A stretch of DNA of 64,000 nt, from positions 1 to 64,000 of the forward strand of contig JAKAUN010000008.1 in assembly GCA_021817605.1 (NCBI GenBank), in the 5' to 3' direction. The first letter of the stretch is position 1. Each line of letters begins with the position of its first letter. This document shows, in pieces, positions 10,277 to 40,145 of the stretch. This DNA is from Thermoplasmata archaeon (GTDB lineage Archaea > Thermoplasmatota > Thermoplasmata > Lutacidiplasmatales > UBA184). Both the position numbers and the translations under genes were made by a program. Below the pieces are notes generated by a model. The model saw nothing but the letters and a program-made list of their open reading frames with translations, had not been told where the DNA came from and ran no database searches.

Positions 10277-10278
10277 CG

Positions 10279-11895: not shown

Positions 11896-11901
11896 CCGTC
11901 G

Positions 11902-12867: not shown

Positions 12868-12869
12868 CG

Positions 12870-13838: not shown

Positions 13839-13853
13839 AGGGAGGTTCACTCG

Positions 13854-17091: not shown

Positions 17092-18897
17092 CTATCCGCC
17101 CATCCGTCGGTCGCCCTTCCGGCGGCGGCCCCCGGCGACGGGACGGGGCGCGGCCGGCGGGCTCGGGGCGGCGGCGGGCCGACGTTCGACCTCCGAGCCG
17201 TGCGCCCAGCGGACCAGCAGCTCGACCCCAAGATGCCTCGGCTCGGTGACCACCATCTCGCCGCCCAGGGTGCGGGCGAGCTCGCGGGCGGCGACCTCGT
17301 ACTCGGGGTGGTCGGACTTGAGCAGGATGATCGTCGAGCGGAGCAGGCCGACGGTGGCGAGCTCCCGGGCCCGCTCGAGGGCATGTTCCTGGGCGATGTC
17401 GAGCTGCCCGGAGCGCACGCTCCCGTCCTCGTCGGTGAATGCCTCGGGTAGGCCGTCGGTGATGAGGTAGAGCTCCTTGCGGCTCGCCCGAGAGGAGCGC
17501 AGGAGCAGGTGGACGGCCCGCAGCGCTTCGGCGGTGTTGGTGAACGCCCCGGCCTTGCACTCCCAGAGCTCGACCAGGTCAAGGGCGGCGACCGTGTTGT
17601 CAAAGGCGAGGACGTCCACGGTCGCGTCCGGGTAGCGGCGACGCACCGCGACGTAGAGCGCGAGGAGGGCCTTCTTCGCCGCGTCGAGCTTGCCGCTCTC
17701 CTCCATGCTCCCGGAGCGGTCGAACGCCAGGACGACGTGGACGCGCTCGGAGGTCACTTCGCGGAAGACGTAGCTGGTCGATTCCTCGATGTGCCGCGAG
17801 CCGGTAAGCCGTGCCTCGAGCAGCGAGCTCGGCACGTCGAGGTGGGCGATCTCCTCGAGACGGCGGAGCCGCGCCTTCTCGAAGACCCCCGTCGAGCCCC
17901 CGCCCCGGAGCGAGAGCCGGACGTCCCCGGGGAGCTGACGGCTGGTCTCCTCGAGGAGGAGCTTGGCGAACCGCTGCACGAGGCCGTAGGTAACGACCAG
18001 CTCGCCCGCCTTCTCGGCGACGAAGCCGCGCTCCTTGAGCTCGCGCTCGAACCGGCGTCGCTCGGCCTCACGGACCTTCTTGTCGGTGTCGCTCTCGGCC
18101 CGCCGACGGGCCTCCTCCTTCTCCGCCTCGAGCTGCCGACGCTGGGAGTCGGCGCTCCGGCGCTTCTCCTCGGCCTCGCGCTCGAGGTCGCGCTCGCGCG
18201 AGCGGATCGACGACTCGACCCGGCCGGAGAGCTCCTTGCGCTCGGACGGCGAGAGGCTGGCGATCGCCGTGCCGAGCTCCGAAGGTCCGATCGTCCGCCC
18301 TTCGGCCGACAGGAAGGCGAGCGGGATCCTGCGACCGGCGGCCGGCGGCGGCGTAGGGACCTTGCGTCGGCGGAAGAGCCCGGAGAGCCAGGCCGCGAAC
18401 CGGCGGAGGGCGGCGAGGAGGCGGGCGAGGAGCCCGGGAGGCCTCGGCGGCCGGTTCCAGGACGCCTCGGGGATGAGCAGCGCGGAGGTCACGTCCTCGA
18501 GGAGCCCGCCGGAGGGCAGGGCGGACCAGTCGATCCCCCGCGCCTGCCTGAGCCTCTCCTCGAGCTCGGCGATCTGCCGTGCGATCTCCTCATCCGAACG
18601 GCGGGTGACGAGGTTGAGCTCCTCCGCCCGACGGTCGTACTCCTCGAGCGTGCGGGCAACCCCCCGCGCGGCACGACGGCGAAACTCCTCGCGCAGTCGG
18701 TCGAGCCGGGACTTGAGCTCCTGGTCGTCCTCCGAGCGCCGCCGAAGCAGTTCCCTTGCCCCCTCGACCCCCTGCTCGGCGAGGACGCGGACCAGCTCGG
18801 CGCGGTCCAGGGTGTCGAGGAGGTCCTCGGAGACGACGTCGTCGGGGTACTGGCTACAGTCCGGGAGAACCGCCCCGTCGCTAGAGGGGGGCATCAT
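17092..18897 (-). CDS. von Willebrand factor A domain protein (MoxR partner)
   Basis: A 601-residue protein. Residues about 30-130 are strongly charged and helical. A basic hydrophobic patch lies near 155-175. A long coiled coil runs about 225-290 (RSRERDLEREAEEKRRSAD and following). The VWA domain is at about 380-570 with MIDAS motif FDRSGSM near 391 and a second metal-ligand segment ITDGLPEAF. The tail is Pro/Arg-rich. It overlaps the 3' end of the AAA+ gene by 17 nt. MoxR/VWA pairs usually act as metal-dependent chaperones that remodel a target protein; no target gene is next to this pair. Confidence 0.82.
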   Translation of the reverse strand: MMPPSSDGAVLPDCSQYPDDVVSEDLLDTLDRAELVRVLAEQGVEGARELLRRRSEDDQELKSRLDRLREEFRRRAARGVARTLEEYDRRAEELNLVTRRSDEEIARQIAELEERLRQARGIDWSALPSGGLLEDVTSALLIPEASWNRPPRPPGLLARLLAALRRFAAWLSGLFRRRKVPTPPPAAGRRIPLAFLSAEGRTIGPSELGTAIASLSPSERKELSGRVESSIRSRERDLEREAEEKRRSADSQRRQLEAEKEEARRRAESDTDKKVREAERRRFERELKERGFVAEKAGELVVTYGLVQRFAKLLLEETSRQLPGDVRLSLRGGGSTGVFEKARLRRLEEIAHLDVPSSLLEARLTGSRHIEESTSYVFREVTSERVHVVLAFDRSGSMEESGKLDAAKKALLALYVAVRRRYPDATVDVLAFDNTVAALDLVELWECKAGAFTNTAEALRAVHLLLRSSRASRKELYLITDGLPEAFTDEDGSVRSGQLDIAQEHALERARELATVGLLRSTIILLKSDHPEYEVAARELARTLGGEMVVTEPRHLGVELLVRWAHGSEVERRPAAAPSPPAAPRPVAGGRRRKGDRRMGG

Positions 18898-20413
18898 CCC
18901 GGTCCTCCTCCTTGCAGGAGAACAGCGAGAACTCCTCCAAGAGGCGGAAGACCCCGAGAGCGGCGTCCGTGGGGGCGACGGCGGCGTCGGGGCGCTCGCG
19001 CTCCCCGACGAAGCTCACGAAACCGCGAAACTTCGGGAAGAGGCCGGGCTCGGAGATGCGACCGGCCAGCGCCGCGTCGTCCTTGAGGCGGCGACCCTCG
19101 CTCACGAGGGCCTGGGCCTCGGGCGAGTTCTCCTTGAGGACGCTCGCGTAGTAGCGGCACCAGTAGACACCGGCGCTGCGCTTGAGCGCGGGTGCAACGT
19201 ACTGGTCGACGAAGTCGATCACGCGCTTCTCGTTCTGCCGGAACGAGTCGCCGCTGCGGGCGCGGATGCGCCCGCGCATGGCGTGGAGAAGACCCGACCG
19301 CAGGTCCTGGCTCGAGGCGACCGTGCGTCCACCGAGCACGGCGATCGCGGCGGTCCGCTCGCCGACATCGAGCAGGGTGCGGTTCGAACCCACCTCGCCG
19401 ACATCCGGGTTGTCCTCCCCGGCCCTCAGCCGCCAGGCCTCGATGACACGCACGCCGGCATCCCGTAGGATCTCCGGAACGAAGGCCTCGCTGCTGGGAA
19501 CCCGCCCGAGCTCCACGATCTTGCGGTTGTCCGCATGACGGTCGTTGAAGCCGATGTGCAGGCTCGTAAGGCGGTCGGAGAGCGGGTCGTTGATGTTGTC
19601 GAGGTCGGAGAGGTTGGAGGTCGCCACCGCGACGAACTCTCCGGGGAAGCTCTCCCGGGACTTGGACGGGGTGACCGTCCCCTCCTGGAGGGCCTGCAGC
19701 AGGACGTTCTGGGTTCCGAGAGGCAGCTTGCCGATCTCGTCGACGAGCAGGAACCCCCGGTTCGCCTGGAGCAGCTTGCCCGGCTCGAGCACGAGCGGGC
19801 TCATCGGATCGCCGACCTCCTCGAGCTTGCGGAGGTTGATGTTGCCGGTCAGGTGGTCAGGGAAGACCTCGGAACTGCCCTGGATGCGGGCGAACCCGAA
19901 CCCCTCGCGAAGACGGACGAAGACGGCTGGGACCTTCGAGGGATCGACGCTCTTCGGGTCAAAGCGCGCGAGGTCCGAGCCCGGGGCGAACCGCCGGCGG
20001 CAGATGGGACACGGCGGGAAGCGCTCGGCCACTTGCGGGTCGATCAGGGCGAGCGGATGGTCGAGGACCGGACACCCTTCAACGACCCAGACGTTCTTGG
20101 GGAAGAGCTCCCAGAGATCCTTGGCGAGGCTCGTCTTGCCCGAGCCGGACGGCCCGAAGAAGAGCACGTGGGCGCCCGAGACCAGGGCCGCCACGAGATC
20201 CTCGTAGACGGCTTCGGGAAGGATCGTTCGCCCGAAGAGCGCCCGGAAGGTCTCGGAACGGTCGAGACCTCGTGCCCGCAGCGCCTCGAGCGTCTTGAGG
20301 ACCTGGTGGCGGAACCTCTCGGCGGGGGACTCCACGGGGACCCTGGCCGACTTGAGCTCGGCAGCGGTCGCGCGGGAGCCGAGCGCCGTGGTCTGGGGAG
20401 CGGAGAGCGCCAC
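18881..20413 (-). CDS. MoxR/Mg-chelatase-type AAA+ ATPase
   Basis: About 510 residues. Walker A is GPSGSGKTSLA near residue 86 and Walker B FLLVDEIGKL near 217, followed by sensor-1 VAVATSNLSDLDN and a C-terminal lid with helical extension. A CPIC motif between Walker A and B could bind metal with nearby residues. I use GTG at 20413 because TATA CTACATATCTC is centred 26 nt upstream, which would make the message leaderless; a TTG at 20425 lies only about 14 nt from the TATA box and is less likely. It is co-transcribed with the VWA gene and diverges from eS1. Confidence 0.85.
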   Translation of the reverse strand: MALSAPQTTALGSRATAAELKSARVPVESPAERFRHQVLKTLEALRARGLDRSETFRALFGRTILPEAVYEDLVAALVSGAHVLFFGPSGSGKTSLAKDLWELFPKNVWVVEGCPVLDHPLALIDPQVAERFPPCPICRRRFAPGSDLARFDPKSVDPSKVPAVFVRLREGFGFARIQGSSEVFPDHLTGNINLRKLEEVGDPMSPLVLEPGKLLQANRGFLLVDEIGKLPLGTQNVLLQALQEGTVTPSKSRESFPGEFVAVATSNLSDLDNINDPLSDRLTSLHIGFNDRHADNRKIVELGRVPSSEAFVPEILRDAGVRVIEAWRLRAGEDNPDVGEVGSNRTLLDVGERTAAIAVLGGRTVASSQDLRSGLLHAMRGRIRARSGDSFRQNEKRVIDFVDQYVAPALKRSAGVYWCRYYASVLKENSPEAQALVSEGRRLKDDAALAGRISEPGLFPKFRGFVSFVGERERPDAAVAPTDAALGVFRLLEEFSLFSCKEEDRDDAPL

Positions 20414-27635: not shown

Positions 27636-28855
27636 GCCCCCGGTCCCGGCCCGGAGAGCCGGGGGGGCGATGTCGCGCCGGACCCAGCGGTCCCGAGAAG
27701 CTGCGGGGCGAACGCGCAGGCGGGGTCGGAGCCGAAGAGGTCCTGCCCCACGGCATAGGCACGTCCGCGGCTACCTCCGCAGCAACCGCGGTACGGGCAG
27801 ACGCCGCACGGCCCGTGAAACTCGCGGCGCCGTATCCTCGCAAGAGCCGGATGGTCTCGGTAGATCGTTGCGAGCGGGGTACTTTGAACGTTGCCGAGAG
27901 GGTACTCGGCGAAGCCTCCGGGAAAGACCGCCCCGTCGTAACGGACGAAGATCGTGCCGTCCCCGTCCAGGGGTCCGTGGGGACGCAACGTGCTCGGGCC
28001 GGTCGGAGCTCCCACGATCGCCTCGAGGTCGGAGGAGAGCTTGGCGTACCCCGCAGAAAGGCCTTCCGGCGGCCCTCGGCGGCGCTCGCGGAGGATCCGA
28101 CGGACGAACGGCGCCTCGATCGGACGGACGGCGACACCGTGGCGGGAGGCATCGTAAAGGAATTGCGCGACCGCCTCGTACTCGGCAGGCACGAGGTCCT
28201 CGAGCGTCTCCGCGCGCCCGGTCCTGACGAGGAAGAAGACCTCCCAGGCAGAAAGCCCGAGATCCCGGACGAGGCCGAAGAGGCGGGGGAGCTCGGAGAG
28301 GTTGGAACGCAGGACCGCGGTGTTCATCTGCACCCGCAGACCGGCCGCGACCGCCTCGCGGAAGGCGCGGACGGTCGCGTCGAAGACCCCGGGCTGGCGA
28401 CGGACCGCCTCGTGGGTCGCGGCCAACGCCCCGTCCAAGCTCAGGGAGATCGCCGAGACCTCCTCGCGGGCGAGCCGGCCGAGGACGGCCGGGGTGAGCG
28501 CGGCGGAGACAGCCGGGGAGACGGCCACCGGTAGGCCGCGGTCCCGCGCGGCTCGCACGAGCTCGAAGAGGTCCGGACGGGATAGGGGGTCGCCGCCGGT
28601 CAGGACCAGGACCGGCGGCGTGCCAAAGGCGGCGAGCCCCTCGATCCACCGCACGGCGGAGGAGGTGGAGAGCTCGCCGGGCAGCGCTTCGGTCTGGGCC
28701 CGAGCCCGGCAGTGCACGCAGGCGAGCGGACAGCGTCGCGTGACCTCGTAGAACACGAGGTGCGGGCGCGGGGGAGCTGCGGGAGCTCCGGCCCCGGACG
28801 CCGTCCCGTCCGCTCCCGGCGCGGAGTGTTCGGGCGGGGACTCGGGGGGATCCAT
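27632..28855 (-). CDS. AhbD/NirJ-like radical SAM-SPASM protein (putative heme synthase)
   Basis: 407 residues. The radical-SAM [4Fe-4S] motif C42-x3-C46-x2-C49 reads EVTRRCPLACVHCRA, followed by LTGGDPLSRPDLFELVRAA. The SPASM-type end has FPGGFAEYPLGNV and CGVCPYRGCCGGSRGRAYA plus later Cys for auxiliary clusters. This pattern is that of the AhbD/NirJ-like family found beside heme genes; AhbD decarboxylates Fe-coproporphyrin III to heme b. I use the ATG at 28855; a longer frame to 28996 overlaps the chorismate mutase and is low-complexity. It is second of four minus-strand genes ending with ferrochelatase. A peptide-modifying role is less likely given that context. Confidence 0.78.
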   Translation of the reverse strand: MDPPESPPEHSAPGADGTASGAGAPAAPPRPHLVFYEVTRRCPLACVHCRARAQTEALPGELSTSSAVRWIEGLAAFGTPPVLVLTGGDPLSRPDLFELVRAARDRGLPVAVSPAVSAALTPAVLGRLAREEVSAISLSLDGALAATHEAVRRQPGVFDATVRAFREAVAAGLRVQMNTAVLRSNLSELPRLFGLVRDLGLSAWEVFFLVRTGRAETLEDLVPAEYEAVAQFLYDASRHGVAVRPIEAPFVRRILRERRRGPPEGLSAGYAKLSSDLEAIVGAPTGPSTLRPHGPLDGDGTIFVRYDGAVFPGGFAEYPLGNVQSTPLATIYRDHPALARIRRREFHGPCGVCPYRGCCGGSRGRAYAVGQDLFGSDPACAFAPQLLGTAGSGATSPPRLSGPGPGA

Positions 28856-28880
28856 GGGAGTGACCTGCGGTGGGGCCCCG

Positions 28881-29186
28881 TCAACGCGGGGGGGGCGTGA
28901 CCGCACGCGGAAGCCCCCGACGCCCCTCGGTGAGGATCCAGCGCACAAGCCGCTCCCCTTCGTCAGGTTCCAGTCCGACCTCGATTGCCCGCGCACGGGC
29001 CCTCGTCACGACGCGCTGCTCCTGGACCGGATCGACCAAGGGGAGGCCTTCGAGGGCCTTGAACTCCCAGAGCTGCCGGACGAGGGCGCGGCGCTCCGCG
29101 TAGAGGGCGATCAACTCCTCGTCGACCTTCCTGAGGAGCTCCCGGTAGGCCGCGACCGACGTGGGTGGGGGGGCACGAGGGCGCAT
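28881..29186 (-). CDS. AroQ-type chorismate mutase
   Basis: A 101-residue all-helical protein. RELLRKVDEELIALYAERR, EFKALEGLPLVDPVQEQRV and the final helix match the AroQ fold (active-site Arg, Lys, Asp and Gln/Glu positions) that converts chorismate to prephenate. It is first in the minus-strand operon with the heme genes, 25 nt before the radical-SAM start. No other aromatic-pathway gene is near, so its transcription with heme synthesis is unexplained. A palindromic operator candidate lies 40 nt upstream. Confidence 0.82.
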   Translation of the reverse strand: MRPRAPPPTSVAAYRELLRKVDEELIALYAERRALVRQLWEFKALEGLPLVDPVQEQRVVTRARARAIEVGLEPDEGERLVRWILTEGRRGLPRAVTPPPR

Positions 29187-29225
29187 TCGGGAGCGACGAG
29201 CCGGTAGCGGGCAAAGGCGGCTTTA

Positions 29226-29239
29226 CCTTACCGGTAAGG
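29226..29239. promoter_or_regulatory. 14-bp perfect palindrome between divergent promoters
   Basis: CCTTACCGGTAAGG is a perfect palindrome. It lies 40 nt upstream of the chorismate mutase ATG and 39 nt upstream of the U32-protein ATG. TATA-like sequences (GGTAAAGCC on minus, GGGTTAGCC on plus) flank or overlap it. The geometry fits a shared operator for the heme operon and the U32 gene. Confidence 0.55.
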
Positions 29240-29277
29240 CCGTTGGGTTAGCCCACCCGTGCGCTCGGGGCGAATGC

Positions 29278-30432
29278 ATGGAGCTCGTCCTCGCCTCCAA
29301 TTTCGATCCGGCGCTCGTGGACCGAACCCGGGAGCTGCCCGTGACGTCGTACTTCGGAAGCTTCCCCCGGAGCCTCACCGGTGGGGGGCGGCCACCGTAC
29401 ATCCTCCCCGAGGTCGACGAGGAGAGGTTCCGTGCGCACGTGCGCGGCATCCACCAGGCGGGACGGAAGTTCTACGCCACGGTGAACACCTCCGACCTCG
29501 GGCTCAAGGAGTACGGCCCCGGCTATCTCGAGTCGTTCGACCGGGAGATCGGACGGCTGATCGAGCTCGGCGTGGACGGCTTCGTGGTCGCCGTGCCGCT
29601 CCTACTCCGGCGGATCCGACGTGCCTACCCCGACGTCGGGCTCACGGTCTCCTCCTTCGCGCGGATCCGGACCGTCGCCCAAGGAGAGTACTACCTCAAG
29701 ATGGGAGCGGACACGGTCGTCTTCGAGGAGGCGAACCGCGACCTCAAGCTCCTCGCGGGGCTCGTGCGTGCCGGCGCTCGGGTCGAGGTGCTCGTCAACC
29801 AGACATGCATCCACGACTGCCCGTACCGCTTTCACCACCTCAACACGAGCTCTCTCGCCTCGCAGAACGGGACCCAGGGACCGTGGTTCGAGTTCCCGAT
29901 CCTCCAGTGCGGCCTCGAGGTCGTGCGCGACCCGGCCAAGCTCGTCGCCGGGGTCTTCGTCCGTCCGGAGGATCTTCACGTCTACGAGGAGGCGGGGGTC
30001 GACCGATTCAAGGTCTCCGGGCGCAACCGGTCGACCGACTGGCTCGTCCGCAGCGCCTCGGCCTACGCCGCCCGACGCTGGGAGGGCAACCTGCTTGACA
30101 TCCTGAGCTATGTCCAGAACCTCGGGCCCCGGAGCGCCCTCCGTCGCCTCGCCGAGGAGGGAAAGGATCCGTCGGTGGTCGGCCCGCTGGCCCAGGGGTT
30201 CGATGCGCTCGCCCACCTGGAGATCGACAATCGCGCGTTCCCTGACGGATTCTTCCGGAGGATCGCCGCCACGGATTGTGCCCGGACCTCCTGCGCGGCG
30301 TGCGGCTACTGCGCGGGGGTCGCACGACGCGTGGTGCGGATCAACGGCTCCCCGCTCAGCTCCTATCAGCCTCCCGACGCGCTACCCGACCCGTCCGACC
30401 TCCTCGAGCACTTCGGCTCGCAAGAGGCGTGA
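29278..30432 (+). CDS. U32-family protein (UbiU/YhbU-like)
   Basis: A 384-residue TIM-barrel protein of the peptidase U32 family. The U32 core NQTCIHDCPYRFHH is near residues 176-189, and CARTSCAACGYC near 337-348 provides further cysteines, so four or more Cys could hold an Fe-S cluster as in UbiU/UbiV, which take part in O2-independent hydroxylation. True proteolysis is doubtful for this family. The ATG at 29278 starts just before the first strand. It diverges from the heme operon across a palindromic operator. Confidence 0.75.
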   Translation: MELVLASNFDPALVDRTRELPVTSYFGSFPRSLTGGGRPPYILPEVDEERFRAHVRGIHQAGRKFYATVNTSDLGLKEYGPGYLESFDREIGRLIELGVDGFVVAVPLLLRRIRRAYPDVGLTVSSFARIRTVAQGEYYLKMGADTVVFEEANRDLKLLAGLVRAGARVEVLVNQTCIHDCPYRFHHLNTSSLASQNGTQGPWFEFPILQCGLEVVRDPAKLVAGVFVRPEDLHVYEEAGVDRFKVSGRNRSTDWLVRSASAYAARRWEGNLLDILSYVQNLGPRSALRRLAEEGKDPSVVGPLAQGFDALAHLEIDNRAFPDGFFRRIAATDCARTSCAACGYCAGVARRVVRINGSPLSSYQPPDALPDPSDLLEHFGSQEA

Positions 30433-30506
30433 GCTGCTCCTCCAGGTTGCGCCGCGCACCCGGCGCGCCGGGGCCCGTCGGGAGGTCGAACGGACGTTGG
30501 ACAAGT

Positions 30507-30515
30507 CTACAAATA
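30507..30515 (+). promoter_or_regulatory. TATA box for the small membrane-anchored protein
   Basis: CTACAAATA, centred about 35 nt before the ATG at 30547. GGTGGG precedes the ATG, so a short leader with Shine-Dalgarno is expected. Confidence 0.7.
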
Positions 30516-30546
30516 GGGCCCGGGCGAGGGAAGGATAGGTGGGACC

Positions 30547-30768
30547 ATGATGTCGGCCATCGCCCTCAAGGTAGCGGTCGCGGCGGGTGCCGTGGCCGCG
30601 GGGACGGCTGTCGTCACCACGGGTGTCGTACCCAACGGCCTCGAGGTGGCGCTCCAGCACGTGCCGGCGTGGACCCATGCCCACAGCGTCCTCGAGAGCC
30701 TCCAGCAGGCCTTCTCGGGGGGCAACCATCCGGGCAAGGGTCACGCAGGCCCGCCGCAGGGTACCTAG
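30547..30768 (+). CDS. Small exported or membrane-anchored protein
   Basis: 73 residues, not recognised. Residues 3-28 are hydrophobic and Ala/Val/Thr-rich (ALKVAVAAGAVAAGTAVVTT), acting as signal peptide or anchor. The rest contains several His (LQHVPAWTHAHSVLE) and ends in a flexible Gly/Pro/His stretch. It has its own clear TATA box and ribosome-binding site and seems monocistronic. Coding status rests on promoter, RBS and the orderly hydrophobic profile. Confidence 0.55.
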   Translation: MMSAIALKVAVAAGAVAAGTAVVTTGVVPNGLEVALQHVPAWTHAHSVLESLQQAFSGGNHPGKGHAGPPQGT

Positions 30769-30908
30769 CGCCTGCGGCGAGGAGACCCCTCCGAGAACGG
30801 ACGGGGTCGCGCCCAACCACTTCGGCCCTCCCTTTTTCGGCCCGGTAAGCGGGTGCGGGCGCACCGCGCTCTACGTCGGCCGAGGGAAGGGCGATCGTCC
30901 CGTGACGA

Positions 30909-31208
30909 TCACTCGACCCAGGTCATCCGGCATTTTGGGCAGGTCTTTCCCTCGAGGGTCGTCCCGCAGACGAAGCATTCCGAGTAGTCCGGGCGCAGGT
31001 CGAGCGTGGGGGTCGGGGAGGCCCGCGGCTCCGGTAGCGGAGGAGGGGGTCCGGAGGGAAGCGACGAGCCCGGGGCCGCCGGCGGCGCCACCTTTGAGCC
31101 GGGGGACCTTCGTGCGCGCGGCGGCTGCGGCGACGCCGCGGCCGGCCCGCCCGTGCGGGCCGCCTCGGCTTCTGCCGCGCTCCCGCGCTTGCGCCGGAAG
31201 AGGGGCAT
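30909..31208 (-). CDS. Small zinc-ribbon protein
   Basis: 99 residues. A basic start (MPLFRRKRG) is followed by about 60 residues of Pro/Ala/Ser-rich linker, then a C-terminal zinc ribbon with CFVCGTTLEGKTCPKC (two CxxC pairs). Such proteins are common in archaea and generally of unknown role. A TATA-like GATAATGA is centred about 30 nt upstream of the ATG. Divergent from ridA. Confidence 0.68.
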   Translation of the reverse strand: MPLFRRKRGSAAEAEAARTGGPAAASPQPPRARRSPGSKVAPPAAPGSSLPSGPPPPLPEPRASPTPTLDLRPDYSECFVCGTTLEGKTCPKCRMTWVE

Positions 31209-32432: not shown

Positions 32433-32768
32433 CGGCGCCGTTCATCGCCCGCCGGGCGCTGTAAGGCGAACTACCTGCCGCCGCGTCCCCCGAGCCCGGG
32501 GTGGTCGGTTGAGCGCAGGGAGCTACGTCATGGGCGCGTCTCGGAAGGAAGTTTCGATCCTGATGTCCTCGGGGGCCGGGGCTCCCACCGCCCCGCTCGG
32601 GCTTCGAAGCGGCTCGGCCGCGCAGGCGATCGTTCCCTTCGCTCCCGACGCGCTCCCCTGGCCCTTCGCTCGCGGGCCCCTCGTGCGGTGCGCCGACCCG
32701 TGCACAGGTCGGTCGGCACCGCCTGCCACGCCGCCCGGTCCCGCCGCGGTGCGGGCGGAGGGCTAGGA
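32433..32768. other. Intergenic region before the T4SS-like operon
   Basis: 336 nt without a gene I can support. An open frame of 85 codons from a TTG at 32509 is Ala/Pro/Gly-rich and has no family signal. No strong TATA box is evident before the operon; its promoter was not located. Confidence 0.4.
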
Positions 32769-33029
32769 ATGCCCGACCCACGGCCCGTAGAGGAGCCGCG
32801 TCTCTGGCGGCGCGTCCGGCTGCCGCGCGGGACGCGGGACCCCGTCGCAGTCCTCCGGAGGATCATCGAACCGTCGGACGGCGTAGAGCGCTCCGTGGTC
32901 GAGATGCTCGCCGAAGAGGAGGGCGTCGGCCGAGCGCTCGTCGCGGCGACCCTCGATCGCCTGCGTCGTGACGGAAGCCTCCGCGCCGAGCGGGGCCCGG
33001 ACGGGGAGGAGGTGCTCGCATGGGCGTAG
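32769..33029 (+). CDS. Small winged-helix protein leading the T4SS-like operon
   Basis: 86 residues. The C-terminal 50 (SVVEMLAEEEGVGRALVAAT then LDRLRRDGSLRAERGPDGEE) look like a winged helix: a recognition helix followed by a beta wing. It could regulate the operon. The ATG at 32769 is close behind an in-frame stop; the 3' end overlaps the next gene by 10 nt, showing translational coupling with the secretion genes. Confidence 0.65.
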   Translation: MPDPRPVEEPRLWRRVRLPRGTRDPVAVLRRIIEPSDGVERSVVEMLAEEEGVGRALVAATLDRLRRDGSLRAERGPDGEEVLAWA

Positions 33030-33427
33030 CCGACGGCCTCTCCCGAACTCGAGCGACGCGGAACCCCCTTGCGGGGCCCGTGGCCCTCCTGCTCGGCGTC
33101 GTCCTCGTCAGCGCGGGGCTCGGCGTCACGTCGGCGAGCCCCTTGGCCGCGGGGGGCAACGGGGCGCCGGCCAGCTCTTCGTCGGGCCCCGTCGCGAACT
33201 TCACGGCCGCGATCAACCGCCTGGTCGAGCTGGTAGGGGTCTCGGGGGCCGGGATCCTCGCCCTCGTCTGGGCCCGGGTGGCGCTCAGCTGGTTCTCCAA
33301 CGACGTCACGAAGAAGGTCCAGGCAAAGGACCGGGCGCGTGACGCGCTGGTGGGGACGCTCCTGTTCGTCGCCGCGGTGAGCGGGCTCGTCTGGGCGCTC
33401 GCCCACTGGGTCATCACCGGCGCCTGA
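33020..33427 (+). CDS. VirB2-like (TrbC/CedA1-type) small membrane pilin candidate
   Basis: 135 residues: a hydrophobic, signal-like N-terminal segment (about 17-40), a polar loop of Gly/Ser/Ala, then two hydrophobic helices (about 68-92, VELVGVSGAGILALVWARVA, and 108-131, ALVGTLLFVAAVSGLVWALA) separated by a short basic loop (KKVQAKDRAR). This is the layout of VirB2/TrbC pilins and of the archaeal DNA-import pilins CedA1/TedC. Similarity is structural, not by clear sequence signature. It lies between the winged helix and the VirB6-like gene. Confidence 0.6.
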   Translation: MGVADGLSRTRATRNPLAGPVALLLGVVLVSAGLGVTSASPLAAGGNGAPASSSSGPVANFTAAINRLVELVGVSGAGILALVWARVALSWFSNDVTKKVQAKDRARDALVGTLLFVAAVSGLVWALAHWVITGA

Positions 33428-33440
33428 ACGGGGAGGCACG

Positions 33441-34565
33441 ATGAACGCCACCGGCCTCGCCAGCCTGGTCCAGGCGATCCTCTTCCTCCTCTTCACCGAT
33501 CTCACGGCGCTCGTCGCCGCGGTGATCGGGCCGACGTACGACAACCTGCTGGTCCCCGAGCTCTCTCCGGGGGCGCTCTTTCCGCCGCTCTACGGGCACC
33601 CCGGCGCCTCTCCCGACTTCCTCCTGCCCGCCGCCCACTTCTCCGCGTTCCTCATCGCCGGTGTGGTCGACCCGCTTGTCGCCGTCGTCGCGCTCGGGGT
33701 CGCGTTCCTCTACCTCGCCCGGGCGACCCTCCCACGGTGGGCGGCCCGCTTCGATGGGCTGCTCCCTCGCCTCGTCCTGGCGGTGGTGGCCGCGAACTTC
33801 ACCGTCCCGATCGCGGGGGTCCTCCTCGACTTTTCCGGCGCGCTCTACCCGCTTGTCGCGGGGTGGGACGGCGGAGCCTGGCAGCACTGGGTGAACCTGG
33901 GAGGCTACGCCGAGCTCCGCCTCTCCTGGGACAACGGAGCCGTGGCGTTCGTGTTGTCGCTCGCCGAGTTCGCCGCGGTCTTCGGGCTCGTGCTTGCGAT
34001 CGGCATCCGCGACGCGCTGCTCGGCGTCCTGTTGGTCGTCCTTCCCGTCCTCACCCTGCTCTGGCCGTTCCGGCCGCTCTCCGCCCTCCCGCGTCGGGCG
34101 TGGTTCTTGTTCGGCGAGCTGGCGTTCCTCCCGTGCGTTCTCGTCGTTCCCCTCGAGCTCGCCGTGGGGAGCCGCTCTGCCGTGCTCCTGGTGGGCTTCC
34201 TGGGCGCCGCGCTGGCCTCCCCGTTCCTCCTCTCGACCGCGGGCGTCCACCTGGCTGCGCTCGGATTCCCGACCGGGGCGGGCACCGTTCAAGCCGGCGC
34301 GCAGCGGGGCCTGGCCGTCGCTCCGGCTGCGGCTACGGCGGCCGTCATGCCGGTCGGCGCTTCGGTGCGGGGGGCCGGCGCGTTAGGCAGCGCCGCGCAC
34401 GGGGCCCTGCGGACGGCCGGCACGGCGTCCGCGCCCCTGGCGGCGCCTCTCGCGGTCCGCGAGCTCCTCGGACACGCCGCGCTCGGCCTCGCCCGGCACT
34501 GGGGCCGCCAGTCCGCGACTCAGCCTCCGCGGATGCCGCCGATGCGTCCCGGGGGGAGCGAATGA
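33441..34565 (+). CDS. VirB6/TrbL/CedA-like polytopic membrane protein
   Basis: 374 residues with about seven or eight hydrophobic segments through residue 275 (for example AGVVDPLVAVVALGVAFLYL, VLLVVLPVLTLLWPF, VLVVPLELAVGSRSAVLLVG), then a 100-residue Ala/Gly/Pro-rich soluble tail. In VirB6-type proteins this forms the inner-membrane channel of type IV secretion, and CedA has the same place in archaeal DNA import. No conserved catalytic motif is expected. The call rests on topology and operon position. Confidence 0.58.
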   Translation: MNATGLASLVQAILFLLFTDLTALVAAVIGPTYDNLLVPELSPGALFPPLYGHPGASPDFLLPAAHFSAFLIAGVVDPLVAVVALGVAFLYLARATLPRWAARFDGLLPRLVLAVVAANFTVPIAGVLLDFSGALYPLVAGWDGGAWQHWVNLGGYAELRLSWDNGAVAFVLSLAEFAAVFGLVLAIGIRDALLGVLLVVLPVLTLLWPFRPLSALPRRAWFLFGELAFLPCVLVVPLELAVGSRSAVLLVGFLGAALASPFLLSTAGVHLAALGFPTGAGTVQAGAQRGLAVAPAAATAAVMPVGASVRGAGALGSAAHGALRTAGTASAPLAAPLAVRELLGHAALGLARHWGRQSATQPPRMPPMRPGGSE

Positions 34566-34566
34566 G

Positions 34567-35349
34567 ATGGAGGAGCCATCCGCCGTTCCTCCGCGTGCCG
34601 CCGTTCCCTCCCGCCTCCACCGTCGGCTCAGGCTGGGGCCGTTCCCCTCGGGCCGGGACGCGCTCAAGTTCCTCGCCTACGCGGCGGTCGCGGCGATCCT
34701 TGCTCCGACCACCGCTCCCCTCCTCGGGGCCCCGATCGTCCTCGTCGGCCTCCTCGTGGCGGTCTACAAGCCCGGCGGCGAAGCGCTGGACGAGCGGGCC
34801 GCTGTCCTGCTCCGCTACGCGTTGCGTCGCCGGGGGGAGCCGGTCCCGATGAGCGCGCGCGTTCCGCGCGGCGGCCTGCGCGGGTCGATTGTCCCGTTGG
34901 GCGACGGGCGCTCCGCCGCAATCGTGCGGACCGCCGGCGTGCCGCTCGCCTACCTCCCACCGGCCGAGCTCGCGCGTCGGTTCGAGCTCTTCCGCCAGCT
35001 GTTGCGGTCGATCGAAGGGGATCTCTTCCTCCTCGTGACCTCCACGCCGATCTTCCCCGACCCGATCGTCCCGGACCGCCTGGCCCGGGGGAGCCACGAC
35101 GCGTCAGCGAGGGGCGGCTACCGCGAGCTCGTGACGCTCCTGGCCCGCCGACGGGCCGTGCGTCGGGTCTACCTCGGACTCGCTTCCACGGCGTCGGGCG
35201 AGGAGACGATCCCGCGCCTCGAGGCGGCGATGGGGGCGCTGCTCGACTCGCTCGCGGCTCTCGGGATCGGCGCGGAGCGCCTGCGCGACCGGCCCCTCGC
35301 CGACGCGGCCACTCGCCTCGGCCTGGGCGGAGGGCCCCACGGATCATGA
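34567..35349 (+). CDS. PrgI/VirB4 N-terminal-like membrane-anchored protein
   Basis: 260 residues. Two membrane segments near 33-68 (FLAYAAVAAILAPTTAPLLG and IVLVGLLVAVY) resemble PrgI. The soluble part (AIVRTAGVPLAYLPPAELAR then FRQLLRSIEGDLFLLVTSTP and RRVYLGLAS) resembles the N-terminal domain of VirB4/TraC ATPases. Archaeal and Gram-positive systems often carry PrgI next to VirB4. It starts 1 nt after the previous stop and overlaps the next gene by 4 nt. Confidence 0.6.
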   Translation: MEEPSAVPPRAAVPSRLHRRLRLGPFPSGRDALKFLAYAAVAAILAPTTAPLLGAPIVLVGLLVAVYKPGGEALDERAAVLLRYALRRRGEPVPMSARVPRGGLRGSIVPLGDGRSAAIVRTAGVPLAYLPPAELARRFELFRQLLRSIEGDLFLLVTSTPIFPDPIVPDRLARGSHDASARGGYRELVTLLARRRAVRRVYLGLASTASGEETIPRLEAAMGALLDSLAALGIGAERLRDRPLADAATRLGLGGGPHGS

Positions 35350-35717
35350 GCGGCACGTCGTGGGTCGGGGACCGCCTGGGCTTCGAGGCGTTCGGTACCT
35401 CGGTGGGCCTCGCGGTCCTCCTGGGTGCTCTGTCGGTCGCCGTCCCGGGCCTCGTGGCGGTGACCGGCACCCTCGCTGCCCTTGCGGTGGCAGGCTGGGC
35501 TACGCTTCCGCGGAGGCTGGGACCGACCCCGTGGGCGAGAAGGGGCGCGGTGAGCCTCGTGGGGTGCGCGCTGCTCCTCGGGGCGGCCGCCTACCTGCTC
35601 CCTCCGGTGTTCCTCGTCCCGTATCGGGGTCTCGCGATCGCCCTCGGGCTCGTTCCCCTATGGCTTCTCGAACGTCGCGGACGCCCCCGCCGATCCGCAC
35701 GAGGCGTGCCCGCATGA
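35346..35717 (+). CDS. Small four-helix membrane protein in T4SS-like operon
   Basis: 123 residues with four hydrophobic segments (about 15-35, 36-55, 68-86, 92-108), ending in a basic tail. No family recognised. It overlaps both neighbours by 4 nt (ATGA), so it is translationally coupled to the PrgI/VirB4-N-like protein and the VirB4 ATPase and is likely a structural part of the same complex. Confidence 0.62.
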   Translation: MSGTSWVGDRLGFEAFGTSVGLAVLLGALSVAVPGLVAVTGTLAALAVAGWATLPRRLGPTPWARRGAVSLVGCALLLGAAAYLLPPVFLVPYRGLAIALGLVPLWLLERRGRPRRSARGVPA

Positions 35718-37399
35718 GCTCCGAGACCCCGCGCCGGTCGGCCGAAGGACCGAGCTGGCTCCGCGTCGGGCGGCGGTTCCTCGCTCCGCTGCTCCTGCGC
35801 CGGTTCCCGCCCGAGGTCGCTTTCGGGTTCCTCGGACAGGTGATCCCGCCGGGGTCGGCGGTCGAGATGGCTCTCCAGGCGCGACGGGTCCCGGGGGAGC
35901 GGGCGCTCGCGCTCATCGAGGGGGCGCGCGCCGTCGCGGAGACCGAGCTGCTCGCCGGCGCGGGAGGGAGCGACCGGCCCCGCCTCGAGGTCGAGCGCGA
36001 CGAGGCCTACGAGCTCGGACGCTCGGTCGCAGGCCGGTCGCAGGAGCTCTGGACCGTGGGGCTGAGGCTGGTCGCCCACGGCCCGTCACGCCCCAGCGCC
36101 GAGGCGGAGCGGCTCAGGCTCTCCGAGCGGCTCGCGGCCTTCGGCTTCGCGAGCCGGGTTCCCCGCTACGAGGTCGTCCGGGCTCTCCGCTGCGGGCTTG
36201 ACGAGTCGCCCGAGAGCCGGCCCACCGGCTACGTCCAGACGCTCACGACGGACGGACTGGCCGCGCTCTTCCCGTTCTCGGACGAGTCGGTCCTCGACCC
36301 CCGGGGGGTCCTGGTCGGCCTCGCCCTCTCGGACGCGAGCCCGGTGTTCCTCGACCGCTGGAGCCACGCAAGCCACTCTTGGGGCCTGTTCGGGACGACG
36401 GGCTCGGGCAAGTCGTTCGCCAGCGCCCTCACCGTCCTGAGAAGCCGCTGGATGCGCCCCGATCTCGAGGTCGTGGTGCTCGACCCTCTCGGCGAGTACG
36501 GTCCGTTCGTCAAAGCGATCGGAGGCGAGGTCGTCCGCCTCGCCGACGGCGGGGCACGGACCCTCAATCCGCTCGATCCCGCCACTACCGGCGGCGACCG
36601 ACGGGAAAAGGCCGGACGGGTGGCGGCGATCGTCCGCGCGCTCTTCCCGAGCCTGAGCGACGAGGAGGGCGCCGTCCTCGACACGACCGTGAGCCGCCTC
36701 TACGCCGCGGAGGGAGTGCCGACCTTCGCGCAGCTCTCCCGGGAGGTCGGCGCCAGCGGCGGCAGCGAGCGGCTGCTGCGCCTCCTCGAGGTCTTCCTGA
36801 GCGGCTCGCTCCGCTTCGTCGACGGGCCGACGACCCTTGACCCTGAGGTCCGGACCGTCGGCTTCGATTTCTCGGGGATCCCGGACGAGCAGCTTCCGTT
36901 CCACCTCGCCTACGTCCTCGACTGGACCTACGGCCGCCTTCGCAGCCGACCGGGTCCCAAGCTCGTCCTCGTGGACGAGGCCCACCTGCTCGTCCGGGAG
37001 GAGAGCACGGCCGAGTTCCTCGACCGGCTGGTCCGGCACATGCGTCACTTCGCTGCGGGAGTGCTCCTGTTGAGCCAGGGGCCGGAGGATTTCCTCACCC
37101 GTCCGAGCGGGCGGGCCCTGCTGCGGAACCTCCATGCGACGGCCTTCCTCCGCCTCAACGAGGTCTCCGAGGCGACCGGCGCGTTCTTTGGACTTGGGAA
37201 GGCAGAGCGGGAGTGGCTCCCGAAGGCGAGGATGCCCCGAGAGGCCGGCTACGCCGAATCGCTCTGGCGGATCGGCGAATGGCATCTTCCGCTCGCGATC
37301 GTCGCGTCGACCCCCGAGTTCGAATTCCTCAACGAGCTCTTCGCCCGCGCGGCGGCGCAAGCCGCCGGATCCCGTACCTCTGGACGGGGGGGTTTATAG
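35714..37399 (+). CDS. VirB4/HerA-family ATPase of type IV secretion type (CedB-like)
   Basis: 561 residues. The C-terminal motor has Walker A FGTTGSGKSFA near residue 228, VVVLDPLGEYGPFVKAIGGE, Walker B KLVLVDEAHLLVRE near 416-429 and LLLSQGPEDFL (sensor region). The N-terminal 200 residues match the VirB4/TraC/TrbE domain. It powers pilus assembly or DNA transport at the membrane. No transmembrane helix is in this protein; anchoring is probably supplied by the PrgI-like protein. Last gene of the operon. The TAG stop is part of the TATA box of the next gene. Confidence 0.85.
   Translation: MSSETPRRSAEGPSWLRVGRRFLAPLLLRRFPPEVAFGFLGQVIPPGSAVEMALQARRVPGERALALIEGARAVAETELLAGAGGSDRPRLEVERDEAYELGRSVAGRSQELWTVGLRLVAHGPSRPSAEAERLRLSERLAAFGFASRVPRYEVVRALRCGLDESPESRPTGYVQTLTTDGLAALFPFSDESVLDPRGVLVGLALSDASPVFLDRWSHASHSWGLFGTTGSGKSFASALTVLRSRWMRPDLEVVVLDPLGEYGPFVKAIGGEVVRLADGGARTLNPLDPATTGGDRREKAGRVAAIVRALFPSLSDEEGAVLDTTVSRLYAAEGVPTFAQLSREVGASGGSERLLRLLEVFLSGSLRFVDGPTTLDPEVRTVGFDFSGIPDEQLPFHLAYVLDWTYGRLRSRPGPKLVLVDEAHLLVREESTAEFLDRLVRHMRHFAAGVLLLSQGPEDFLTRPSGRALLRNLHATAFLRLNEVSEATGAFFGLGKAEREWLPKARMPREAGYAESLWRIGEWHLPLAIVASTPEFEFLNELFARAAAQAAGSRTSGRGGL
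37393..37399 (+). promoter_or_regulatory. TATA box overlapping the virB4 stop codon
   Basis: TTTATAG, centred about 28 nt before the GTG at 37424, implying a leaderless message. The final TAG of the element is the stop codon of the VirB4-like gene. Confidence 0.7.
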
Positions 37400-37423: not shown

Positions 37424-37993
37424 GTGGTGGCCGAACCCACCGCCGAAGGGCCGGCCCGCCGGCGCTCGAGCTGGAGCCTAAGGACGATCGTCGAGGACGT
37501 TGCGGGCAAGCCGATCGGGGAGTTCCAAGACCCCGAGCGGCCGGTGCATCCGTACCTGCGCGCGAAGCTCTCGGTCCCTCCGACCGCAACGGCCTCGGCA
37601 CCGGGCCGGTCTCCCGACGATGACTACGACCCGGTGAGTCGCCTCTACCCTCCGTTGGTGGGGGCGTCGGCACGCGACTTCCACGGACCGGAGCACGAGC
37701 ACCACAGCGAAACGCTCGCCCGCCATCGTCCCGAGCCGCCGGGGCCGGGGGAGCGGGCGCACCTTCCCGGCCCGGCACAGCGTCCCGAGCGCCTCTACCT
37801 GCACTACCTCCTCCTCCACATGGACCGGCTGAGCGACCACGCGCTCCGCTACCTCCTCCACGCCGTCCTCGAGGAGGTCGCGCACCGGCAACGGATCCCT
37901 GTCGCGGGCCCCCTCCCGTCTCCGGACCGCCCCAAGACCACCGCACCGTCGGCGCCCGACGTGCCGGCTAGCGTGGTGGTGACGGGTCCGTAG
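37424..37993 (+). CDS. Hypothetical protein behind the T4SS-like operon
   Basis: 189 residues, unrecognised. A basic N-terminus (RRRSSWSLRTIVEDVAGKPI) is followed by a Pro/His-rich disordered middle and a compact helical stretch (LYLHYLLLHMDRLSDHALRY then LLHAVLEEVAHRQRI). There is no signal or membrane segment. It has its own TATA box, placing the GTG start at +1. Its 3' end overlaps the convergent methyltransferase by 26 nt. Confidence 0.65.
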   Translation: MVAEPTAEGPARRRSSWSLRTIVEDVAGKPIGEFQDPERPVHPYLRAKLSVPPTATASAPGRSPDDDYDPVSRLYPPLVGASARDFHGPEHEHHSETLARHRPEPPGPGERAHLPGPAQRPERLYLHYLLLHMDRLSDHALRYLLHAVLEEVAHRQRIPVAGPLPSPDRPKTTAPSAPDVPASVVVTGP

Positions 37994-38786
37994 CGAGAAG
38001 CCCTCGGGTGCGCGCCTCCTCGGCCAGCGTCGCGAAGGTCGGCCCGTCCCACTCGACGCCTATCGCGTTGCGCCCCAGCGCGGCGGCAGCCCAGAGCGTC
38101 GTGCCGGTCCCTGCGAACGGGTCGAGGACGGTGTCGCCCACCACCGAGAACATGCGCACGACCCGCTCGGCCAGCGCCGTGGGAAACGCTCCCGTGCGGC
38201 CCCGACGGCCCGCCTGACGGGCACCGCGGAGGTCCTCCCAGACCTGGGAGAACCACAGGTCGCGCTCGGCGCGGGTGAACCGGCTCGCGAGGCGGCCGGG
38301 GTCGTGGGGTGGGAAGCGACGAAGCAGTCCCTTGCGGAACAGGAGGACGAACTCGCAGTCGAGGGTCACGTAGGCGTTGGGGGGGACGAAGCCCGACCCC
38401 AGGAACGCGTTCGGCTTGTTGGTCGGTTTCTTCCACAGGACGTAGGGGAGCGGGCGGAAGCCGAGGCGCGCCGCGGCCACCAGGGTATCGGCGTGGTTGG
38501 GCCAGAGCCGAAACTCCCCGTCGGTCCGCCGCAACGCGTCGCCGATGACCACCGCGAGGATCCCCCCGGGGACGAGGACACGGTGGGCCTCCCGCCAGGC
38601 CCCCTCGAGCAGGGCGAGCATCCCGGGGTAATCGACGGCCCCCTGGAGACGGAAGACCTCGTCCCACTGGGGGATCATCGGGTACGGCGGCGAGGTCGCG
38701 ACGAGGTGGACCGTGGCGTCCCTGACCCCGTCCAGGCGACGGGCGTCCCCCCGAAAGAGCCGAACCGTTCCGCGCGCCGGCCTCAC
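37968..38786 (-). CDS. Orphan DNA methyltransferase with SPPY motif (probably N4-cytosine)
   Basis: 272 residues, beta class: VHLVATSPPYPMIPQWDEVF is motif IV near residues 28-47, VLVPGGILAVVIGDA follows, target-recognition sequence lies in the middle, and SAM motif I LDPFAGTGTTLWAAA is near 225. The GTG at 38786 begins just before the first strand (VRLFRGDARRL) and lies about 29 nt from a TATA box, consistent with a leaderless transcript. No endonuclease gene is adjacent. It converges on the hypothetical gene and diverges from the HPS gene from one shared promoter element. Confidence 0.87.
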   Translation of the reverse strand: MRPARGTVRLFRGDARRLDGVRDATVHLVATSPPYPMIPQWDEVFRLQGAVDYPGMLALLEGAWREAHRVLVPGGILAVVIGDALRRTDGEFRLWPNHADTLVAAARLGFRPLPYVLWKKPTNKPNAFLGSGFVPPNAYVTLDCEFVLLFRKGLLRRFPPHDPGRLASRFTRAERDLWFSQVWEDLRGARQAGRRGRTGAFPTALAERVVRMFSVVGDTVLDPFAGTGTTLWAAAALGRNAIGVEWDGPTFATLAEEARTRGLLATDPSPPR

Positions 38787-38810
38787 CGGTCCGCTACGAG
38801 GGTCGGCTCG

Positions 38811-38820
38811 GTTATTACGC
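38811..38820. promoter_or_regulatory. Shared bidirectional TATA element
   Basis: GTTATTACGC is the only A+T-rich sequence between the divergent methyltransferase and HPS genes. It is centred about 26 nt from the HPS ATG (38841) and about 29 nt from the methyltransferase GTG (38786), so one TBP site may serve both directions with leaderless messages. Confidence 0.55.
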
Positions 38821-38840
38821 GTCGGCCCCTTCACGGCGCG

Positions 38841-40145
38841 ATGCGGCTCGAGAGGCCCGTCCTCCAGGTGGCGCTCGACTTCGAGAACCTCTCCCGCGCC
38901 GTGACGGCCGCCCGCGAGGCGGTCGAGGGCGGGGCGGACTGGATCGAGGCAGGCACCCCGCTCATCAAGAGCGAGGGCCTCAACGCCGTCCGGGAACTCA
39001 AGAAGGCGTTCCCCGACCGGCGGATCGTCGCCGACATGAAGGTGATGGACACCGGTGCCTTCGAGGTCGAGCTCGCCGCCAAGGCGGGCGCGGACCTCGT
39101 CACCGTGCTCGGTGCCGCGGACGACGGGACGATCGCCGAGGCCGTTCGCGGAGGCGAGCTCTACGGGGCGGAGGTCGTGGTCGACCTTTTGGGGGTCGCC
39201 GACCCCGTCTCCCGCGCACGACGCGCCGCCGAGCTCGGCGCTGCGGCGGTTTGCTGGCACGTCGGCATCGACATGCAGATGCAGGCCAAGACCCCCTTCG
39301 AGATCCTCGGGGAGCTCGCGCGCGGCTCCCCCATTCCCGTCGCGGTCGCGGGGGGGCTCAACAGCGAAACGGTCGCCCAGGCGACCCGCGAAGGCGCGCA
39401 GATCCTCGTCGTCGGCGGGGCGATCACCAAGAGCCCGAAGATCGCGGAGGCGACCCGGGCAATCGTCCGGGCCATCTCCGAGCGCAAGGAGGTGGCGACC
39501 GACGCGTTCCGCCGCTACGCCGGTGCGGAGGTCCGCGCGGCGTTCCTCAAGGTCTCCACTCCCAACATCTCGGACGCCATGCAACGCGCCGGGGCGATGC
39601 ACGGGCTTTTGCCTCGGCTCAAGGATCCCACCGTCCGCTTCGCCGGGCCGGCCGTGACCGTCGTCACCCTGGACGGCGACTGGGCGAAGCCTGTCGAGGC
39701 GATCGACCGCGCGGGCCCCGGGGACGTCCTGGTCGTTGACGCCGGCGGCGGCACCACGGCGGTCTGGGGCGAGCTCGCCAGCTGGTCCGCCCACGGCCGC
39801 AAGGTCGCCGGGGTGGTGATCGACGGGGCGATCCGCGACCTGGACGCGATCCTTGAGCTCGGGTTCCCCGCGTTCAGCCGGTCGGTGAGCCCGAACGCCG
39901 GCGAGCCGAAGGGCCACGGCGAGATCGGCGTGGAGGTGACGGTCGGCGGGCAGAAGGTGCGGCCCGGCGACTGGATCGTCGGCGACACGAGCGGGCTCGT
40001 GGTGGTGCCGCGCGAGCGGGCCGCGGAAGTGGCGAACCGTGCGCTGGACGTCCTCGAACACGAGAACCGCGTCCGAGAGGAGATCCAGAGGGGCTCGACC
40101 CTGAGCGTCGTCCAGAAGCTCGAGCGCTGGGAGCGCGTCGGCTGA
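38841..40145 (+). CDS. Bifunctional 3-hexulose-6-phosphate synthase / RraA-like protein
   Basis: A 434-residue fusion. Residues 1-215 are HPS, an orotidine-decarboxylase-superfamily barrel (LQVALDFENLSRAV, GADWIEAGTPLIKSEG, IVADMKVMDTGAFEVELA, VAGGLNSETVAQA) that links ribulose 5-phosphate and formaldehyde to hexulose 6-phosphate; archaea run it in reverse to make pentoses. Residues 230-430 are RraA/HMG-aldolase-like (STPNISDAMQRAGAM, VDAGGGTTAVWGELAS, GVVIDGAIRDLDAI). The same fusion is known in other archaea. The partner isomerase PHI is absent here. ATG leaderless from the shared TATA box. Confidence 0.9.
   Translation: MRLERPVLQVALDFENLSRAVTAAREAVEGGADWIEAGTPLIKSEGLNAVRELKKAFPDRRIVADMKVMDTGAFEVELAAKAGADLVTVLGAADDGTIAEAVRGGELYGAEVVVDLLGVADPVSRARRAAELGAAAVCWHVGIDMQMQAKTPFEILGELARGSPIPVAVAGGLNSETVAQATREGAQILVVGGAITKSPKIAEATRAIVRAISERKEVATDAFRRYAGAEVRAAFLKVSTPNISDAMQRAGAMHGLLPRLKDPTVRFAGPAVTVVTLDGDWAKPVEAIDRAGPGDVLVVDAGGGTTAVWGELASWSAHGRKVAGVVIDGAIRDLDAILELGFPAFSRSVSPNAGEPKGHGEIGVEVTVGGQKVRPGDWIVGDTSGLVVVPRERAAEVANRALDVLEHENRVREEIQRGSTLSVVQKLERWERVG

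Follow-up and report, generated by a model that had tools for sequence, protein, structure and literature searches.

The window analysed here is a 64,000-nucleotide stretch from a Thermoplasmata archaeon (positions 1 to 64,000 of contig JAKAUN010000008.1, GenBank assembly GCA_021817605.1), whose 1.75-Mb assembly comprises 16 contigs and is 100% complete. Judged from its sequence, the operon at positions 32769–37399 of this window is a minimal chromosomal type IV secretion system (T4SS), consisting of a VirB2-like pilin, a VirB6-like channel, a VirB3-like hairpin joined to the first half of a VirB4 N-terminal domain, a small membrane protein, a VirB4 ATPase and the remnant of a surface protein. 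With moderate confidence we read it as a domesticated, vertically inherited apparatus for cell-to-cell DNA exchange, the imported strand of which would serve repair.

As shown in Table 1, the operon holds six open reading frames (ORFs) on one strand, all of them open over their full length. Successive ORFs are spaced by -10, +13, +1, -4 and -4 bp, and these overlaps or 1–13 bp gaps indicate a single transcript. All six are rated as coding by a codon model, and each has syntenic orthologues in about 15–23 loci of related genomes (the named ones are metagenome-assembled genomes of Thermoplasmata), far beyond chance; the six coupled genes of the original prediction, which had been made from the sequence alone, are thus real. 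Hydropathy analysis bore out the predicted topologies as well, with a signal peptide plus two helices in the 33020 product, eight hydrophobic segments in the 33441 product and four in the 35346 product (genes are named by their first position). VirB8, VirB10 and VirB11 are missing from the cassette, as is VirD4 at the locus. Taken as a whole, the earlier interpretation stands in its core, a minimal chromosomal VirB2/VirB3/VirB4/VirB6-type operon in a Thermoplasmata genome; its account of the winged helix and the term 'undescribed' do not, and its lack of VirD4 applies to the locus alone, as set out below.

Table 1. Features of the operon and its flanks, in window coordinates
Feature	Coordinates	Strand	Evidence
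Fibrillarin-like gene, left flank, second paralogue in the genome	31773..32432	+	NCBIfam fibrillarin, 2.8e-62; synteny
Putative promoter: element CGTTCATCGCCCG (32439-32451), 17 nt, TATA-like AACTACC (32469-32475)	32439..32475	+	Conserved in relatives
Winged-helix remnant, 86 aa, cytoplasmic tail of a surface protein	32769..33029	+	Orthologue comparison
VirB2-like T4SS pilin, signal peptide + two hydrophobic helices	33020..33427	+	PF18895, via homologue
VirB6-like polytopic channel (best, indirect assignment), 374 aa	33441..34565	+	Position, 8 hydrophobic segments, profile chain
VirB3-like hairpin + first half of VirB4 N-terminal domain (PrgI/SCO6880-like), 260 aa	34567..35349	+	SCO6880, Foldseek, PrgI match, fusion
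Small protein with four transmembrane segments, probable VirB4 membrane anchor	35346..35717	+	Position; fusion in genome G122
VirB4 ATPase, 561 aa	35714..37399	+	NCBIfam VirB4 models, 4ag5, motifs
Conserved 189-aa protein, family unassigned, downstream of VirB4 in most relatives	37424..37993	+	Synteny; without Pfam match
Orphan N6/N4 DNA methyltransferase, convergent with VirB4	37968..38837 (stretch scanned, start codon approximate)	-	PF01555, 3.5e-30
Hexulose-phosphate-synthase-like gene (named from sequence alone), right synteny anchor	38841..40145	+	79-87% identity in nearly all relatives

VirB4 ATPase and its split N-terminal domain

The 35714 product is firmly assigned as a VirB4 ATPase. 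Its best NCBIfam models were VirB4 CD1110 (8.3e-37) and VirB4_CagE (8.9e-15), and its profile found the solved VirB4 structure 4ag5 at 1.5e-30. The Walker A (GTTGSGKS) and Walker B (LVDEAHLL) motifs on which the original assignment had relied are present and, together with the downstream R/H/Q motifs, invariant in 21 orthologues. A search of the same genome with PF12846 gave no match although VirB4 is present, so this model is insensitive here. The NCBIfam CedD model matched an operon protein at 2e-9, far under the cut-off of the model.

Results of fold and family comparisons agree in identifying the 34567 product as a part of VirB4 that has become a separate protein, in keeping with the PrgI/VirB4-N-like identity proposed for it originally. 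The actinobacterial T4SS family SCO6880 (NCBIfam) was matched by six of 21 orthologues (best 4.2e-5) and PrgI, weakly, by one (0.012); the profile of the family also matched a 'PrgI family protein' of an Embleya plasmid at 9.6e-7, while comparison with the sequences of the PDB gave nothing meaningful. In the AF2 (AlphaFold2) model (pLDDT 76) two N-terminal helices precede a ferredoxin-like half domain, and the top Foldseek matches of this model were TrwK/VirB4 of R388 and the R388 inner-membrane complex (probability 1.00, E 1e-3). Moreover, genus g28 (locus L106) carries a second, unlinked VirB4 of 877 residues, in which residues 57–281 match the 34567 profile and residues 317–849 the 35714 profile. 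Because both parts occur there in one chain, and because of the fold and family matches, we regard the 34567 product as a piece separated from VirB4, in which a VirB3-like hairpin is combined with the first half of the VirB4 N-terminal domain.

Orthologues of the 35346 product always lie between those of the 34567 product and VirB4. In genome G122 (L104:9198-11126) three transmembrane segments stand ahead of VirB4 within one polypeptide, and for this reason the 35346 product is probably the membrane anchor of the ATPase.

Pilin and channel

The pilin is likewise strongly predicted. The T4SS_pilin family PF18895 was matched by six of 17 orthologues of the 33020 product directly (best 1.4e-3), and the profile built from them finds proteins of genome G051, one of which exceeds the PF18895 gathering threshold at 2.5e-8; the VirB2-like candidate is therefore borne out both directly and via a homologue. 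The same-position pilin of one genome in family f11 exceeds the thresholds of both T4SS_pilin and TrbC/VirB2. The charged loop that joins the two helices, KKVQAKDRARD, hardly varies among orthologues.

Five tandem proteins of G051 (L054:13826-18703) match the pilin profile. Four of them are 320–406 aa long, with large N-terminal regions ahead of the C-terminal pilin part, and are possibly minor or tip pilins.

For the 33441 product VirB6 is the best assignment, reached indirectly. Profile-profile comparison connected it with the proteins found at the same position in families f15 (98.9%), f27 (95.4%) and f11 (96.7%), with unrelated membrane-protein controls at 1% or less, and the f11 proteins in turn match TrbL/VirB6 (PF04610) weakly, at 6.6e-4, below the cut-off. 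Neither the pilin nor the channel family profile gave anything meaningful against PDB sequences.

The first gene and the operon promoter

The winged helix of the first gene, which had been predicted as a protein of its own, is present as a domain; in the family it is no stand-alone regulator but the truncated tail of a membrane protein with PKD repeats. In most relatives, orthologues are about 500–751 aa long in the genus and 1742–1811 aa in other genera of the family, so that the surface protein of the operon is large and variable among relatives. These proteins have an N-terminal signal, PKD-type repeats, one transmembrane helix and the winged helix at the cytoplasmic end, the repeats being evident in long forms and weak in short ones. 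In the window species and in G002 (L042) the winged helix alone is kept, and comparison of the orthologues indicates that the PKD ectodomain and the transmembrane helix were lost in the window species. At locus L044 no winged helix was detected.

Upstream of the operon, several relatives carry the tandem heptamer CGTTCANCGTTCR exactly 17 nt ahead of AAATACC; the window holds a degenerate variant of it with unchanged spacing to the TATA-like box, and no clear copy is present in some relatives, such as L031 and L041. The exact heptamer pair occurred 12 times in six genomes, compared with none for the backward-read control. Five of the 12 sites lie upstream of the T4SS operon, one each in five genomes, and these are the only ones with AAATAC at 17 nt, from which it appears that the operon owns a dedicated promoter. 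A larger regulon under the motif, for instance of DNA repair genes, was rejected at the level of exact matches, as the other seven sites are without a TATA box at 17 nt.

A contact-triggered DNA-exchange machine could be imagined on this basis, in which the PKD/transmembrane/winged-helix protein would sense a partner cell and directly activate its own operon via the CGTTCAN-repeat element; the window species would then have lost the sensor part and kept a soluble, perhaps constitutive regulator. We consider this elaboration unlikely. That the winged helix regulates its own operon is doubtful, as L044 keeps the motif without a detectable winged helix.

Distribution, synteny and inheritance

Among genomes at least 80% complete, VirB4 was found in 41 of 47 from the genus and in 23 of 24 from the rest of the family. 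Three genera, that of the window and two sisters (g1, g25, g29), have the operon in one common slot with all its genes intact: a RidA-like gene and the fibrillarin paralogue are followed by the operon, often a 37424-type protein (165–195 aa in relatives), the convergent methyltransferase position, held in relatives by a TSPPYP protein, and the hexulose-phosphate-synthase-like gene. No empty slot was seen. The six examined genomes of the genus and family without VirB4 also lack both flanks, so these absences may reflect missing sequence.

The five-gene cassette is common to Thermoplasmata families f1, f15 and f27, with a reduced form adjoining core genes in f11. The main VirB4 copies of the family form one clade (98/94) in the VirB4 tree, apart from plasmid VirB4s and second copies; deep branches of this tree are uncertain and some of its rows are long. 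The fixed slot across genera, together with the cassette in other families, argues for vertical inheritance and not for part of an integrated plasmid. The chromosomal location given in the original prediction thus holds, and synteny in the genus contradicts an occurrence only inside integrated plasmids with relaxase and VirD4. An integrated plasmid was accordingly rejected for the genus on the grounds of synteny between core genes.

Relaxase, VirD4 and traces of mobile elements

Within the operon and its immediate flanks we found no relaxase, VirD4 or integrase. That none of the three is adjacent, as had been claimed, is true at the locus, but a VirD4/TrwB-like gene is present on another contig of the genome (G000:C3, about 28588-30911, equivalent to L088:8588-10912, - strand; PF10412 28.6 bits, cut-off 20.5). 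It adjoins three KaiC/RecA-like genes, with a matching arrangement in G026. Scans with PF12696 and PF10412 showed this ATPase to be conserved in the genus and widespread in the class, even in genomes that lack this VirB4 and in the operon-less genus genomes G160, G181 and G249; given such matches, it may or may not be coupled to the operon. The MobA-type relaxase PF03432, the sole relaxase family scanned, was absent from 78 genomes of the genus. Viral contigs held no pilin relative and one weak ATPase match, and no relative of the 34567 product was found in the plasmids searched by tblastn. A relaxase and a coupling protein in one module with boundaries, as in a conjugative element (plasmid or integrative conjugative element, ICE), were not found in the operon or its immediate flanks.

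In genera g24 and g28 (L105, L106) a second T4SS-like module was observed, with T4SS_pilin, a VirB6-like protein, a fused VirB3/4N-VirB4, a 173-aa protein (OB-fold by eye, without Pfam match) and a TraG-D_C/VirD4-like protein of >1000 aa.

Comparison with known systems

The gene set of the operon equals that of the Ced and Ted DNA-exchange systems (PMC9905601) of Sulfolobales/Desulfurococcales and Thermoproteales, respectively, which are likewise chromosomal, lack a relaxase and combine a VirB4-type ATPase, a VirB6-type channel and a VirB2-type pilin. Here too we found a VirB4-type ATPase, a two-helix pilin and a chromosomal setting without PF03432 relaxase (78 genomes) or mobile element; the 33441 product, a candidate channel, fits in position and topology. 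In CedB and CedD, too, the VirB4 N-terminal domain is distributed over two proteins (PMC11868833). In contrast to Ced/Ted, the operon has an extra VirB4-N half without ATPase domain, joined to a VirB3-like hairpin, as well as a small transmembrane anchor and a PKD/winged-helix surface protein, and it belongs to a different phylum.

VirB4 with adjacent PrgI/VirB3 and a polytopic VirB6 (VirB6 by position) corresponds to the MPF_FATA type. A member of this type, the Embleya NBC_00896 plasmid (PrgH-PrgI-PrgJ type), shares the order of a large upstream protein, a PrgI/SCO6880 protein, a small protein and VirB4; yet in Embleya these are followed by VirD4, a replication-relaxation protein and an NlpC/P60 hydrolase, all three of which are missing from the chromosomal, vertically inherited Thermoplasmata operon. 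The relaxase-less chromosomal T4SSs of Patescibacteria also hold T4SS_pilin, PrgI, VirB6 and VirB4 (PMC12102498), but differ in their bacterial VirB4 clade, reportedly in the lack of VirB3-VirB4 fusions, in other associated genes and in a link with epibiosis.

T4SS parts in Thermoplasmata have been touched on before, and 'undescribed' was therefore too strong a term. T4SS components of Cuniculiplasma (CSP5_1185-1189 and CSP5_0791) are mentioned in one sentence (PMC5155288); as here, a Thermoplasmata VirB4 cluster with membrane proteins accompanies a separately encoded VirD4, although that account annotates the genes and does not analyse the pilin, VirB3/4N, synteny or function, and the resemblance to the present cluster is one of described gene content. 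An ICE was reported for Aciduliprofundum boonei (Guglielmini et al. 2011, PMC3158045), in contrast to which no integrase, VirD4 or MobL-like gene lies near the operon in the window's genus. VirB4 was mentioned earlier for E-plasma. In the open-access papers searched we found nothing on the cassette, the split VirB4, the surface protein or their conservation.

Proposed function and alternatives

In the reading that we favour, the pilin would be exported, cleaved and assembled into a mating pilus or short conduit, with the 33441 product forming the membrane pore. A hexamer of the 35714 product, anchored by the 34567 and 35346 products, would power assembly of the pilus and/or the passage of DNA. 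Cell-cell contact would be made, in most relatives, by the PKD-repeat surface protein, whose cytoplasmic winged helix may signal it to the operon promoter; the window species keeps the winged helix alone. Single-stranded DNA would probably come from host repair enzymes, as proposed likewise for Ced/Ted, with or without the unlinked VirD4-like ATPase, and the imported strand would feed recombinational repair. The components correspond to a T4SS core that forms a pilus or channel and is able to act on DNA. The missing relaxase, the vertical inheritance and the core location indicate a role of benefit to the cell, and DNA exchange for repair is in our judgement, by analogy with Ced/Ted, likelier than protein delivery, followed by a pilus-only role.

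Several observations weigh against DNA exchange for repair. The channel has no direct profile link to actinobacterial VirB6 (0.6–2%), and its AF2 model (pLDDT 53) is too poor for structure comparison. Unlike at some Ted loci, the neighbours (RidA, fibrillarin, hexulose-phosphate synthase) give no hint of DNA repair. With VirD4-type proteins in the genome, the substrate could be something other than DNA for recombination, and the similar T4SSs of Patescibacteria are tied to epibiosis (PMC12102498). Finally, an integrase, a true VirD4 and a weak MobL-like gene are all found no more than about 50 kb from the cassette of G051 (family f15); in that setting a related cassette may be mobile.

Some of these points would fit contact-dependent delivery of proteins or effectors, or epibiosis, with the same machine exporting proteins into neighbours, as has been proposed for the patescibacterial systems, the PKD protein acting as adhesin and the unlinked VirD4-like ATPase as substrate receptor. 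The importance of the patescibacterial systems for epibiotic growth, the conservation of the VirD4/TrwB-like ATPase in the genus and the large, variable surface protein encoded in the operon all favour this explanation. Yet no candidate effector or immunity gene is linked at any locus, and the VirD4-like gene is unlinked and class-wide, being present also in VirB4-less genomes, G160, G181 and G249 among them; we regard such delivery as rather unlikely. More doubtful is a conjugation-type pilus serving mainly adhesion or biofilm formation, assembled by VirB4 with nothing translocated. The pilin being the best conserved small protein, the co-encoded large PKD adhesin and the N-terminally extended tandem pilin-domain proteins of G051 speak for it, whereas the VirB6-position channel and the full VirB3/VirB4 set are kept in f1, f15 and f27, and a type IV pilus locus is already present in this genome.

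We give little credence to uptake of environmental DNA, or release of DNA, in place of cell-to-cell exchange: some bacterial T4SSs are known to take up or release free DNA (mentioned in PMC12102498), but the large surface protein encoded in the operon points to cell contact, and no competence genes occur at the locus. Least probable of all is a remnant or part of an ICE with transfer genes still present. Such an origin is recommended by the ICE of A. boonei, by the neighbourhood of the G051 cassette and by the second VirB4 copies that g24 and g28 carry along with a VirD4-like gene; it is opposed by the presence of complete operons in one slot flanked by core genes in g1, g25 and g29, by the grouping of VirB4 by lineage, and by the lack of matches to the pilin in viral contigs and to the 34567 product in plasmids.

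Other features of the window and related loci

The type IV pilus locus, of archaeal type, spans 9281-15593. It starts with a pilin-like gene (9281) and encodes PilB/T2SSE ATPases (10279, 13944) and T2SSF membrane proteins (11902, 12870), an ATPase-TadC-TadC-ATPase layout equal to that reported for Cuniculiplasma. At 17092-20413 we observed a pair of an AAA/MoxR-like ATPase and a VWA-domain protein.

Beside the operon, the methyltransferase convergent with VirB4 is conserved in many relatives and might mark self DNA; in G051, VirB4 likewise has a larger N6_N4_Mtase protein as its neighbour (L054:7021-9573). Two fibrillarin paralogues occur in this one archaeal genome (31773-32432 and G000:C3:32351-32923), of which the window copy accompanies the T4SS operon. 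In G200 (L101:8498-9394) an Endonuclease V fused to an O6-methylguanine-DNA methyltransferase domain lies directly 3' of VirB4.

Implications

Cultured carriers of related cassettes appear to exist, and the readings weighed above are therefore testable. As a very small T4SS, the five-gene cassette is useful for defining the minimal translocating core. Beltran et al. (2023) knew of no report, outside the Ced/Ted lineages, of a conjugation apparatus domesticated for DNA transfer. If the proposed function is true, cell-encoded exchange of DNA is not confined to one archaeal phylum but reaches a second, and this would help to explain gene exchange in Thermoplasmata.

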